From positions 1 through 64,000 of the forward strand of contig JANYKL010000090.1 of NCBI GenBank assembly GCA_025361625.1: 64,000 nt of DNA. The letters are read 5' to 3'. Made by a program: the position numbers and the translations under genes. Of the stretch, positions 41,384 to 60,952 are shown piece after piece. This stretch comes from Acidobacteriaceae bacterium (GTDB lineage: Bacteria > Acidobacteriota > Terriglobia > Terriglobales > Acidobacteriaceae). The notes under the pieces were generated by a model. It ran no database searches. It was not told the origin of the DNA and saw nothing but the letters and a program-made list of their open reading frames with translations. Position 1 is the stretch's first letter, and the number at the start of each line of letters is the position of its first letter.

Positions 41384-41569
41384 ATGGGTGAAGGAATTTT
41401 TCAGCCGCTGCACATCTTGTTGATTATCGGAATCGCGCTACTGCTGTTTGGTCCAAGCAAGTTTGCTGACTTAGGTAAGGGATTGGGAGAAGGCATTAAA
41501 AATTTTAAGTCTTCAATGAAGGACGAGGATAAAAAGAAAGACGAAGCTCCCAAGCCGCCTAGCGCATAG
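41384..41569 (+). CDS. tatA: Sec-independent protein translocase subunit TatA/TatE
   Basis: 61 residues: a short periplasmic start, one membrane helix (LHILLIIGIALLLFGPSKF) with the family FGPSKF hinge, an amphipathic helix (LGKGLGEGIKNFKSSM) and a Lys/Asp-rich tail. TatA forms the pore ring for export of folded proteins with twin-arginine signals. GGGGAGG four bases before the ATG is a strong ribosome site. tatB/tatC are not in this window. Relevant here because the Qng1-like protein at 55900 has an apparent twin-arginine signal. Confidence 0.95.
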   Translation: MGEGIFQPLHILLIIGIALLLFGPSKFADLGKGLGEGIKNFKSSMKDEDKKKDEAPKPPSA

Positions 41570-55757: not shown

Positions 55758-55899
55758 AAGCCGGAACTTCTTAGGGAAACGGAACGCAATCCGAGTCATT
55801 TTTATTATATGTCCCGCTTCCGTGGCCGAGCGAAGCGGTTGACACTACCCGTCACAGAAGGTACTTTGCAGAAACTTGGAATTGGAGCCGAACGCAGCT

Positions 55900-57009
55900 A
55901 TGATCTCGCAATCGATCGGACGTAGGGAGTTTGTAAAAGCAGCAGGCAGTTTTGGAGTTCTCGCGGCAACCATGAAAGAAAATCTTTTCGCCAATTCTTT
56001 AGCTGCTCCTGTGCCTTGGCCGAAACTCGTCGGGAGCCCGGTGCTCGACAGCCTGCATCCAGTAATCGATCATTCGCGTGATGTGCGCACCCACTTTAAG
56101 AAAGTCCAGGAAGTTGCCGCCTGGATGGCCTATGAAGAGCTTCCTGAGCCCGACTACGCGCTTCCGTTAGGCGCCGGAGATGGCAAGCGAGACGAGACGA
56201 TCGATTTTATTCTTACCGCCGACCTGATCGACACCGCCTTCACCGACTTTTCAAACCAGCAAAAATTCCAGGTCGATTTTGCCGGACGCCACTGGTCCGA
56301 CTCGGACGCGCTCTTTGCATGCATGAAGCGGGCGCTCGATAGCGGCATTCCGGTGCTCGATGGAAAATTTCTTGCGCAAGCGACGAAGCCCGAACTTCAA
56401 AAGATTTTCGCCGGCAACATTGAAATGCCGATGCTCGACGAAAAAATGGAAGTGCTGCATCAATCCGGCAAAGTGCTGGTCGACAGGTATGGTGGGCGAT
56501 TCCACAATTTTGTGGACTCCTGCTCCCCGCGCCTTTATGACAACGGAAAAGGCCTGGTCGACCGCATGGTCACCGAATTCCCCCGCTTCAACGATGTCAG
56601 CGAATACGACGGACATACCATCAAGTTGTTCAAACTTCCGCAACTTGGCCTGTGGCTCGTGTATTCAAGCCTGCGAAGGTCCGGGCAATTTCGCATCGAC
56701 GACCTCGACAAGATGACGGCTTTTGCCGACTACATCGTCCCGGTCGCCCTACGATTGATGGGAATCACGTCGTATTCGCCCGATCTTGAGCACGCCATCA
56801 ACTCGCACCAGATGATTCCTCGAGACAGCCGACAGGAAATTGAGATTCGCGCTCACTGCGTCTATGCCACGGCGCTGCTGAGTGAAGAGGTAAACAAGCT
56901 TCGTCCGAAAGATATGCAAATCGTTATCCCGCAAATCGATGCGCGCCTATGGACGCACTATCACACGACCTGGTGGCCCCATCATTTGACTAAAACAATC
57001 ATGTACTGA
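55900..57009 (+). CDS. Queuosine-salvage (Qng1/DUF2419) family protein with a twin-arginine signal
   Basis: 369 residues from ATG 55900 (the track start 55876 is a TTG). The main domain matches DUF2419, whose studied members (human/fungal/bacterial Qng1) free queuine from queuosine-5'-phosphate: FSNQQKFQVDFAGRHWSDSD, ALDSGIPVLDGKFLAQATKPELQKI, GRFHNFVDSC, MTAFADYIVPVAL, SRQEIEIRAHCVYA and WTHYHTTWWPHH line up with the family in order. Unlike ordinary members, it begins MISQSIGRREFVKAAGSFGV, a twin-arginine export signal (RRxFxK, then a hydrophobic stretch and LAA|PVP-like site). It therefore appears to be exported. A nucleoside-hydrolase gene follows 56 bases later. Confidence 0.85.
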   Translation: MISQSIGRREFVKAAGSFGVLAATMKENLFANSLAAPVPWPKLVGSPVLDSLHPVIDHSRDVRTHFKKVQEVAAWMAYEELPEPDYALPLGAGDGKRDETIDFILTADLIDTAFTDFSNQQKFQVDFAGRHWSDSDALFACMKRALDSGIPVLDGKFLAQATKPELQKIFAGNIEMPMLDEKMEVLHQSGKVLVDRYGGRFHNFVDSCSPRLYDNGKGLVDRMVTEFPRFNDVSEYDGHTIKLFKLPQLGLWLVYSSLRRSGQFRIDDLDKMTAFADYIVPVALRLMGITSYSPDLEHAINSHQMIPRDSRQEIEIRAHCVYATALLSEEVNKLRPKDMQIVIPQIDARLWTHYHTTWWPHHLTKTIMY

Positions 57010-57064
57010 TTCGTGACTGAAAATGCGGGTAGCAGTCAAGTTCCCGGCCAGGAGATTCAGAAGT

Positions 57065-58164
57065 ATGCGCTGCCGATTTGCATTCATCATCTTCGTTTTT
57101 TTTAGCTGCGTGTCGTTCGCGGGTGCGCAGGCAAAGCGCAAGATCATTATTGACCAGGACGCGAGGGGCCCCGCCACGACCGACCAGCAATCGATGCTGG
57201 TCTTTCTGCAATCTCCAGAGGTCGAGACTCTCGGCATAACCGTGGTCAGCGGCGATATGGCGAGACGAAGAAGTGGCGCATACGCTGCGAATGCTGGAGA
57301 TTATCGGTCGCACCGATGTTCCCGTCGTTCCGGGGGCGGTTTTCCCTCTTATTAACCGGATGGAATTGATCGAGCGCTGGGAAAAGCTCTACGGCAAAGT
57401 CGATTATCAAGGCGCGTGGAATAAGAAGCCTTCAGGCGACGGTCAGCGTGGCGGCTTTCATGGTCCGTATGAGATTCCGCCGCTGGAAGGAAGGCAATCC
57501 GACAACCAAGCCATCAACCGAGGATGCCGCGCACTTCATCATCCGCATGCTGCACAAGTATCCGCACGAAGTAACGCTTTATGCGGGAGGCCCGCTGACG
57601 GATATTGCACAGGCCATCAGTATCGACCCGGCAGTGCCCGACCTCGCGCAGGAACTGGTAATCATGGGCGGTTCGATCGCTCCTGATTTGCCCTATCCAT
57701 GGGCGACTTCGAATCGCCGTGAATTCAATTTCTGGTGGGACCCGGAAGCTGTGCACATCACTCTAAGCGCTCCGGGGTGGCGCAAAATAACCGTGACTAC
57801 CGTCGATATTTCAATCAAGACCCGCATGACGAAAGAAATGATCGCGACCATCGCCAAGTCGCAGAATCCAGCTGCGCAATACATTGCAAAATATGCGGAC
57901 GAGGAATATCTCTGGGACGAACTTGCTGCAGTCGCTTGGCTCGACCCAAGCATCATCACCAAAGAGATTCAACTGCGCATGGACATGGATTACTCCCATG
58001 GTCCCGGTTACGGCAACACCCTTGTCTGGGCTCCGGGAGATGAACCCGGCCTCGGCGAGAGCCTGGTGAAAGTGCCGCAAGAACTGGATCTGGCAAAATT
58101 CAACAAAATGTTCATCGCTCTGATGACGGCGCCAACACCTGGAGCGATTCAGAAAGCGAAGTGA
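57065..58164 (+). pseudogene. Exported nucleoside hydrolase-like gene broken by two frameshifts
   Basis: Three frames join into one about 365-residue protein. Signal peptide MRCRFAFIIFVFFSCVSFAGAQ, then KIIIDQDARGPATTDQQSML (metal-binding Asp cluster) and TLGITVVSGD in frame one. At about 57257 the sequence jumps to a second frame, giving WRDEEVAHTLRMLEIIGRTD. At about 57509 a third frame gives KEGNPTTKPSTEDAAHFIIR, YAGGPLTDIAQ and WWDPEAVHI. This is the ribonucleoside-hydrolase superfamily (IunH-like), cleaving nucleosides to base and ribose outside the cytosol. ATG 57065 has AGGAG ten bases upstream. Real decay or sequencing indels cannot be told apart. Confidence 0.8.
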
Positions 58165-58218
58165 TTTCGGGTTCGTAAAATCAGTGTGCGTCCGCGCAAG
58201 CGTAAACCGGTCGCACGC

Positions 58219-58224
58219 TATAAT
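58219..58224 (+). promoter_or_regulatory. Possible -10 box of the kinase-propeller gene
   Basis: A perfect TATAAT, 10 bases before ATG 58235, with no good -35. If used, the mRNA would be nearly leaderless. Confidence 0.3.
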
Positions 58225-58234
58225 TGTCCGACGA

Positions 58235-60952
58235 ATGGCGCTTACTTCCGGCACGCGGCTTGGACCTTACCAGATTCAGTCACCCATCGGCGCGGGTGGG
58301 ATGGGCGAAGTTTACAGCGCGCGAGACACTCGTCTTGACCGCACCGTTGCCATAAAAATTCTCCCCGAACATCTGGCTAGCGATTTCGACGCGTGCGAAC
58401 GTTTCGAGCGCGAAGCTCGCAGCATCTCTTCGCTGAATCATGCCAACATTTGTCAACTCTTCGATGTCGGGCAGGAAGGCAGTGTCCGCTTCCTGGTCAT
58501 GGAATATCTGCTCGGCGAAACGCTCGCCGACCGACTGAAAAAAGGTGCGCTGCCTATCGACCAGTTGCTGCGAATCGGCGCCGAAATTGGCGATGCGCTC
58601 GACCGCGCTCATCGCAGCGGAGTCGTGCATCGTGACCTGAAGCCGGGCAACATCATGCTGACGAAGTCCGGCGCGAAAATATTGGATTTCGGGCTGGCAA
58701 AAGCGAAGCCCGGGATTCCTCCGCCCGCTTCCGACTTGACCGCCACATTCACTTCTCCAGCGATTTCTCATCCCCTGACTGCGAAGGGAACGCTCCTCGG
58801 AACCTTTCAATACATGTCTCCCGAGCAGGTAGAGGGCAACGAGGCCACGTCGTGCAGCGACATCTTCAGCTACGGCGCGGTGCTCTACGAAATGGCGACC
58901 GGAAAGCGAGCATTCGAAGGCAAAAGCCAGATCTCGGTCGCTTCGGCCATTTTGGAAAAGGAACCGGAACCGCTGGCGATTATGTTGCCGACCGCGCCGC
59001 CAGCGCTCGATCAGATTATCCGCGGCTGCCTTGCGAAGGATCCCGAGTCGCGCTGGCAGAGCGCCGGCGATGTTGCCCGGCAATTGCGATGGCTTGGAAC
59101 TAGGAGTTCGAGTTCCGTGTCGGGAGGGGAAGCAGCGCCGCCTCGAATGAGGCGCCGCGTGCGCGAGCGTTTGTTGTGGGGAACACTAGTTGTCGCATTA
59201 GTCGGCGCTCTCTTATGGACGGCGTGGCGTGCCCATGGCCCGCTTCCCGTCTTTCGTTCTTCTCTCGTCCCACCGCCAGGAGCAATCTTCGATTTCGATG
59301 GTGATTTCTCCGCCCCGCCCGTTCTTTCTCCAGACGGCACGCAGGTCGCATTTGGTGCACGCTCGCAAAAGGAACGCGAAGTCATCTGGGTGCAATCACT
59401 TGATGCCGTTGCCTCGAGGAAACTGGCGGGCACTGAAGGCGGTGCCTTTCCCTTCTGGTCGAAGGACGGAAAATTCATCGCATTTTTTGTCGACGGCATG
59501 TTGAAGAAAATACCAGCCGCCGGCGGCTCGATCGTCAGCATCGCCGAGGCTCCCAACGCCCGCGGTGGTGCGTGGGGCGCTGATAACACGATCGTCTTTG
59601 CCCCCGACTACCGAGGAAACCTCTGGAAGGTCAGTGCCAACGGGGGCATTGCGGTTCGCGCCGTCAAACTCGATGAGAGCCTGCACGACACGCATCGCTG
59701 GCCGACGTTTCTTCCTGACGGCAGACACTTTCTGTTTTTAGCGACCAATCATGGCATCGGTGCCCGCGAAAAATACGGCATTTACATGGGATCGCTGGAC
59801 AATGACGAGAGCAAACTTATTCTGTCGAACGATGCCGGTGGTCAATACGCCGCCGGTTATTTGCTCTTTCACCGAGAATCGCAACTGATGGCGCAGAAAT
59901 TCGACTGGAAGCGCGGCACGCTCTCAGGTGAGCCGTTCTCTCTTGCGGATAACGTCGACTACGATGGCGGAACCTGGCATGCAACCTTCACTGCCTCTGA
60001 AAACGGCGTCCTCATATATCAGGGAACCGTCGTGAGGTCAGGCTACGATCTAACGTGGGTCGATCGCCGCGGTGCTTTACTCGGCAAGGCAGCAGAAGCA
60101 GGAGCCTATAACGGCGCCCGGATTTCTCCGGATGGAAAGCGCGTTGCCATCGCCTTGGGTGATCCCAAACCGGATATTTGGGTGTTCGACCTCGCGCGCG
60201 GCACGCGTGTTCGCTTGACCTTCGACTCGGCCCTGCACCAGATGCCCTCATGGTCGGCCGACGGCCAGCGAGTCGCTTTTACTACACAGGCCGGACTGAC
60301 GCTCTCTTTTGGCGCAACGCTGCATGCAAAACAGGCAAGCGGCATGGGGCAGGATGAATTGCTTCTAGCTGAGGGGAAGCCCGGCGAGAGTCCGATCACT
60401 TTGTTTTGGCCTCAGTGGTCTGCGGATGGCAAATATCTGACCTACCAACGACTGATGGGCCCGGTCGGCGCACAGTTGTGGGCAGTTGCCACCTCGGGGG
60501 ATAAAAAGCCATTTCCGGTGGTACAGCCGCAATCGCCCACTGCCCGCATTGTGCAAACGCGCCTTTCTCCGGATGGAAAATGGCTGGCGTATAGCTCGAC
60601 CGATTCGGGGCGCGAAGAAGTTTACGTAACCCCGTTTCCGAGTGGAGCAAGCCGCTGGCAAATTTCACAAAGTGGGGGAGGTTATCCAGTGTGGCGAGGC
60701 GATAGCAAAGAAATTTACTATGCCGGCCTCGCCGATGCCTCGCTTCACTCCGTGGCGGTCAGGGTTAACGGAAACGAATTCGAAGCCGGAATTCCGGAAA
60801 CTTTATTTGCGATCCGCGCGACTTCAGCGGTCGGCTACCCCTACGACGCCGCCCCAGATGGCAAGCGCTTTCTTTTACCCATGCCGCAACAGGACGCGAC
60901 AATCGCGCCGATGTCGCTAATCGTTAACTGGCCTGCGGGGCTGAATAAGTGA
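58235..60952 (+). CDS. Membrane Ser/Thr protein kinase with C-terminal PD40 beta-propeller
   Basis: 905 residues from ATG 58235. Kinase domain about 12-275: GAGGMGEVYSARD (glycine loop), AIKILPEHL (Lys), VVHRDLKPGNIML (catalytic loop), DFGLAKAKPG (Mg site), MSPEQVEGN. One membrane helix follows (about 305-325, LLWGTLVVALVGALLWTAW), then a TolB/WD40-type propeller outside, with repeated units such as PVLSPDGTQVAFGA, GARISPDGKRVAIALGDPKP and RLSPDGKWLAYSSTDSGREE. The likely role is to sense an extracytoplasmic ligand and phosphorylate cytosolic targets. Kinase-propeller fusions are typical of Acidobacteriota. Confidence 0.92.
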   Translation: MALTSGTRLGPYQIQSPIGAGGMGEVYSARDTRLDRTVAIKILPEHLASDFDACERFEREARSISSLNHANICQLFDVGQEGSVRFLVMEYLLGETLADRLKKGALPIDQLLRIGAEIGDALDRAHRSGVVHRDLKPGNIMLTKSGAKILDFGLAKAKPGIPPPASDLTATFTSPAISHPLTAKGTLLGTFQYMSPEQVEGNEATSCSDIFSYGAVLYEMATGKRAFEGKSQISVASAILEKEPEPLAIMLPTAPPALDQIIRGCLAKDPESRWQSAGDVARQLRWLGTRSSSSVSGGEAAPPRMRRRVRERLLWGTLVVALVGALLWTAWRAHGPLPVFRSSLVPPPGAIFDFDGDFSAPPVLSPDGTQVAFGARSQKEREVIWVQSLDAVASRKLAGTEGGAFPFWSKDGKFIAFFVDGMLKKIPAAGGSIVSIAEAPNARGGAWGADNTIVFAPDYRGNLWKVSANGGIAVRAVKLDESLHDTHRWPTFLPDGRHFLFLATNHGIGAREKYGIYMGSLDNDESKLILSNDAGGQYAAGYLLFHRESQLMAQKFDWKRGTLSGEPFSLADNVDYDGGTWHATFTASENGVLIYQGTVVRSGYDLTWVDRRGALLGKAAEAGAYNGARISPDGKRVAIALGDPKPDIWVFDLARGTRVRLTFDSALHQMPSWSADGQRVAFTTQAGLTLSFGATLHAKQASGMGQDELLLAEGKPGESPITLFWPQWSADGKYLTYQRLMGPVGAQLWAVATSGDKKPFPVVQPQSPTARIVQTRLSPDGKWLAYSSTDSGREEVYVTPFPSGASRWQISQSGGGYPVWRGDSKEIYYAGLADASLHSVAVRVNGNEFEAGIPETLFAIRATSAVGYPYDAAPDGKRFLLPMPQQDATIAPMSLIVNWPAGLNK

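Follow-up and report, generated by a model that had tools for sequence, protein, structure and literature searches.

The window, the whole stretch of 64,000 nucleotides that was analysed, carries a gene for a Qng1-family protein with a probable twin-arginine (RR) signal, an adjoining nucleoside hydrolase gene, and a tatA gene at some distance on the same strand. The features considered here are the following:

41384-41569, + strand: tatA, a Tat translocase subunit (TIGR01411, 61 bits, above cut-off)
55900-57009, + strand: qng1, Qng1/DUF2419 (Q_salvage, PF10343), 369 aa, with an N-terminal RR signal (Pfam, PDB, Foldseek)
55900-56007, + strand: probable twin-arginine signal peptide, residues 1-36 (sequence; outside the homologous core; low pLDDT; RR in 21 proteins)
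56632-56634, + strand: codon of K245, equivalent to K199 of S. thermophilus Qng1 (mutated in 7u5a, K199C)
56728-56730, + strand: codon of D277, equivalent to D231 of S. thermophilus Qng1 (mutated in 7ulc, D231N)
56938-56952, + strand: D347 to W351, equivalent to the active-site D298 and W302 of S. thermophilus Qng1
57065-58164, + strand: IU nucleoside hydrolase (PF01156) with a Sec-type signal and the divergent motif IIDQDARGPATTDQQ, in three frames (Pfam; intact L090 homologue)

The qng1 open reading frame starts at the ATG at 55900 and stops at 57009, with a TTG at 55876 as an alternative start. An earlier note on this DNA had assigned the gene to Qng1/DUF2419, and the comparisons bear this out. 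The protein matched PF10343 with an E-value of 2.5e-57 (195 bits versus the curated cut-off of 25) and the PDB 7u07/7u91 family with an E-value of 2.6e-43, the alignment with S. thermophilus Qng1 extending from residue 48 to the end. Its AlphaFold model (mean pLDDT 84.6, with a confident core and residues 1-34 below 50) was matched by Foldseek to the bacterial Qng1 7u91 with a TM-score of 0.88 by target length, an rmsd of 2.2 and 29% identity, and the sole strong PDB matches were Qng1 crystal structures, including the complex with queuosine-5'-monophosphate. We mapped four active-site positions between the window protein and S. thermophilus Qng1, in which D298 and W302 are named as active-site residues (PMC11592518). 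K245, D277 and W351 are invariant in 42 aligned proteins, and D347 is absent from one distant row only. Since family membership, the Qng1 fold and the four active-site residues are all kept, the enzyme looks intact.

The N-terminus of the window protein reads MISQSIGRREFVKAAGSFGVLAATMKENLFANSLAAP, in which the RR motif (GRREFVK, with hydrophobic residues at +2/+3; RR codons at 55921-55926) is followed by a hydrophobic run from A14 to M25 and a plausible cleavage site after S-L-A or L-A-A. Residues 1-47 are extra to the conserved Qng1 fold. Thus, the RR motif of the twin-arginine signal claimed in the earlier note is present, ahead of a homology with solved Qng1 that begins only at residue 48, and the tatA gene that it had placed at 41384 was likewise recovered. 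The window gene has a weak Shine-Dalgarno (SD) sequence (GGAG, 12 nt), translation from an internal ATG at 55972 could yield a protein without the signal, and a promoter-like match over the ATG at 55900 is at about chance level, as promoter and terminator scans here are near chance in general.

The adjoining hydrolase gene begins with an ATG at 57065, 55 bases 3' of qng1. Its description in the earlier note as a nucleoside hydrolase with a Sec signal stood as regards superfamily and signal, as the N-terminus is hydrophobic and of Sec type and the C-terminal part scored 128 bits against PF01156, above the cut-off, but the gene lacks a continuous open frame. Pieces of it lie in frame +2 (57065 to c.57257), frame +3 (c.57258 to c.57487) and frame +1 (c.57487 to 58164), and each shares 64-84% identity with its counterpart in the intact L090 homologue, which places two frameshifts near 57258 and 57487. 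The gene would be either a recent pseudogene or the product of an assembly error. The DxDxxxDD calcium motif is absent from the window hydrolase, which reads DQDARGPATTDQQ instead. The Qng1-adjacent hydrolases of L051, L052, L083, L086, L087 and L009 carry DQDxxGPxxTDxQ versus the canonical DTDPGxDDA and form a distinct subgroup. Directly downstream, at 58184-60952 of the window, lies a gene whose product joins a protein kinase domain to WD40-like PD40 repeats.

Homologues were collected from GTDB contigs and by searches at the level of family, genus, order, class and phylum. N-termini of the RR-x-phi-phi type, in which a short hydrophobic run separates the motif from the core, were found in 21 of the 41 tree proteins, the window protein included, and the RR proved to be conserved across Terriglobia. 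The letters of these 21 N-termini differ, while the plan is constant. Two of the signals end in a lipobox-like sequence (L089, IVSLAAGCGEG; L086, SPLFIGACSD), and that of L092 ends in SAFA-A. L007 and L089 have a good ribosome-binding site exactly at the signal start, L083 has its ribosome-binding site at the upstream (signal) start, and L014 and L015 show a G-rich SD-like run at the signal start. One script rule assigned a Tat-like N-terminus to 18 of the 21 RR homologues, among them the window protein, versus 18 of 376 neighbouring ORFs; three RR proteins failed the rule, and some h-regions are short or interrupted. Between close pairs, pN/pS was 0.51 in the signal region versus 0.15 in the core, as expected if the signal region is under weak purifying selection, loosely constrained yet translated. 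One genome (G843) encodes two exported-type Qng1 copies, with a Tat signal on one (L079) and a Tat-lipoprotein-like signal on the other (L089). From the RR conserved in Terriglobia homologues, the ribosome-binding sites at that start and the two lipobox-type signals, we infer that Qng1 is exported across the inner membrane, and the comparison supports this well.

A maximum-likelihood tree was built on the Qng1 core of the 41 proteins. The RR rows make up most of its Terriglobia part, with one RR member outside the class (L057). The earlier note had held that homologues lacking the RR region would speak against export; such proteins, truly signal-less, were found only in one derived clade and in some outgroups. 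This clade (L004, L009, L005 and L010-L013; support 95/87) lies inside the Terriglobia part, and its members begin at an ATG upstream of which there is no in-frame RR region with a start codon ahead of it. In several members the end of a TPR gene precedes qng1, and an RRRQL upstream of L005, considered as a signal fossil, was rejected as an out-of-frame reading of that gene. The Chloroflexi homologues have no signal. Judged from this tree, the signal is widespread in Terriglobia, with one derived loss in the supported clade. The whole tree needs six signal changes, three of them forced by well-supported branches, so that we are unsure whether gains preceded losses in the part beyond Terriglobia.

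We further clustered and annotated the genes around Qng1 at 34 loci, comprising 22 RR loci and 12 others. The commonest neighbour was an exported IU nucleoside hydrolase, located within 7 kb at 20 of the 34 loci (14 of 22 RR, 6 of 12 others), so that the gene pair remarked on in the earlier note is a conserved association, even if the hydrolase gene of this genome is broken. These hydrolases belong to nucleoside-utilisation islands that comprise ureide permease, ribokinase, DeoC and aldehyde dehydrogenase genes. At 15 of the 34 loci, a ureide permease (PF07168) is encoded no more than 25 kb away on the same contig; those within 4 kb of Qng1 are all at RR loci, and the pairing of qng1 with PF07168 recurs in L002, L007, L008, L052, L083 and L087. 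The remaining neighbours include ribokinase, DeoC, aldehyde dehydrogenase (ALDH), cytidine deaminase, pyrimidine nucleoside phosphorylase (PYNP), the CNT nucleoside importer, xanthine-dehydrogenase (XDH)-type subunits and purine permeases. The PfkB neighbour in L083, considered as a queuosine or pseudouridine kinase, is a ribokinase above cut-off instead, and the other PfkB neighbours tested score below all cut-offs. A plasmid-borne origin was rejected, as tblastn gave no match in the plasmid collection.

In this genome, the set of DeoC, ALDH, hydrolase and permease genes lies on another contig (L105, contig C50), away from Qng1, and the closest intact relative, from the same genus (L053), has no island around Qng1. 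Another locus of the genus (L061, 5300-5900) holds a truncated Qng1 pseudogene that keeps the RR and is part of a nucleoside hydrolase island that also includes a ureide permease. Nucleoside hydrolases number up to nine per genome, and an expansion to 6-9 copies was seen in G000, G093, G576 and others, as well as in Qng1-negative genomes of the genus. In the signal-less clade, CNT and PYNP lie near or downstream of Qng1 in six of the seven rows (L005, L009, L010, L011, L012 and L013), the seventh (L004) having a purine permease nearby; among the RR loci examined, both occur in L087 only. This fits a switch of the Qng1 compartment along with the uptake route, a correlation that carries little statistical weight because it stems from one evolutionary event.

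The 32 genomes with Qng1 were compared for queuosine (Q) synthesis and transport. TGT was found in 30, QueA in 30 and a strong QueC match in 24, the latter being missing in the other eight; in G000, whose assembly is incomplete, QueA was not found and TGT is cut by the contig end. Most of these genomes thus probably make Q themselves, and queuine salvage for their own tRNA looks unnecessary. A Q auxotrophy without TGT or QueA was accordingly rejected as an explanation for most genomes. The QPTR transporter was found in three of the 32 genomes, and a PF07168 permease in 27.

Two other readings of these data have to be weighed. The RR region might not be a working signal, in which case Qng1 would start downstream in the cytosol or keep the region as an unprocessed extension. 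The known family members are indeed cytosolic, the extension is absent from seven close relatives, and L002, L003 and L006, like the window gene, have internal ATGs past the RR region; the chance-level promoter match over the upstream ATG of the window gene could be counted on the same side. However, the RR-x-phi-phi motif and hydrophobic run are conserved while the other letters change, and the lipobox variants, the ribosome-binding sites and SD-like runs at the upstream start, and the export-type partner genes all argue for a signal, so that we regard a non-working RR region as quite improbable.

Alternatively, the exported Qng1 could be a specific queuosine/deazaguanine scavenger, which frees queuine (or preQ0/preQ1) externally for import of the base by the ureide permease and use in tRNA. 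The kept active site, the restriction of the closely linked ureide permeases to RR loci, the lack of QPTR in 29 of the 32 genomes beside the frequent PF07168 permease, and the eight genomes lacking a strong QueC match are consistent with such a role. Moreover, according to PMC11130926, an Acidobacteriota ureide permease encoded beside qng1 imports preQ0/preQ1, preQ1 even at 5 nM; the same study reports that queuine was moved only at very high concentration, which speaks against scavenging of queuine, and that queuosine was not imported. The prevalence of TGT, QueA and QueC makes salvage mostly unneeded, and ribose and deoxyribose catabolism genes are abundant in the islands. In addition, queuine is not known to be a substrate of a canonical preQ1-type bacterial TGT. 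The periplasmic release of queuine for salvage, as proposed in the earlier note, is thus not supported, and a specific scavenger seems to us a doubtful reading. The complete form of this route would have a Tat-exported, sometimes lipid-anchored Qng1 of Terriglobia free queuine or other deazapurines from environmental tRNA debris, with the ureide permease importing the base and the compartment switching with the importer type (base permease or nucleoside importer); we likewise consider it unlikely. As the ribokinase, DeoC, ALDH, PYNP and XDH-type genes of the islands point to nucleoside use in general, a broader or different substrate is more likely than specific queuine salvage.

We therefore favour, as reasonably probable, a Tat-exported Qng1 subfamily of Terriglobia that serves as an extracytoplasmic N-ribohydrolase in nucleoside use. 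This explanation builds on features of the sequences themselves: family membership, the kept active site, the conserved RR signal and gene company, and one derived signal loss. From these we infer export itself, periplasmic catalysis, the substrate and the uptake of products. The Tat pathway would carry this N-glycosylase of Terriglobia across the inner membrane, and some lineages would apparently have it as a lipoprotein. Outside the cytoplasm, beside Sec-exported nucleoside hydrolases, it would split nucleosides or nucleotides that derive from decaying nucleic acid. The freed base and (phospho)ribose would enter through the island permeases and be consumed by ribokinase, by DeoC/ALDH and by the catabolism of purines or pyrimidines. 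Since the adjacent hydrolase is frameshifted and the main island lies on contig C50, Qng1 of this genome would act with other hydrolases of the genome. The known substrate of Qng1 is queuosine-5'-monophosphate (Q-5'-MP). Against this explanation stand that known substrate, the weak SD and the internal ATG of the window gene, some poor h-regions, the broken partner gene and the island-free L053.

Eukaryotes obtain the micronutrient queuine from bacteria, and little is known about its extracellular release from nucleosides. A clade-wide export of Qng1, if true, would provide a concrete extracellular release step. It would also make the pairing of qng1 with a ureide permease understandable, as the permease need not carry Q, and would fit the puzzle of a qng1-adjacent permease that, according to PMC11130926, carries deazaguanine bases and not queuosine. 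If the substrates are ordinary nucleosides, a queuosine-salvage fold would have been recruited to general nucleoside catabolism, and in these genomes a PF10343 assignment by itself should then not be taken to mean queuosine salvage. We found no report of an exported Qng1, or of a Tat signal on Qng1, in the searchable literature.

Compared with known systems, the window protein is like the queuosine-5'-phosphate N-glycosylase Qng1/DUF2419 of S. thermophilus and human (7u91, 7ugk) in family, fold and catalytic residues. The solved members lack the signal region, whereas the window protein has some 40 additional residues that carry a twin-arginine signal and, unlike them, is part of a subfamily that occurs together with exported nucleosidases. 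Its neighbour belongs to the superfamily of the IU nucleoside hydrolases (PF01156; RihA/RihB/RihC, QueK superfamily), which, like Qng1, split N-glycosidic bonds of nucleosides, but differs from them in the DQDxxGPxxTDxQ motif in place of DTDPGxDDA, in its export signal and, in this genome, in its frameshifts. The pairing of an Acidobacteriota ureide permease with qng1 (A0A2V9U0M9; PMC11130926) is the same as that in the present loci; there, the permease only was tested, and the passages covering the pair mention no Qng1 signal. Finally, the Qng1 N-termini resemble Tat signal peptides in the RR-x-F/L-L type of motif, the short, moderately hydrophobic run and, in some of the set, an A-x-A or lipobox-like end.
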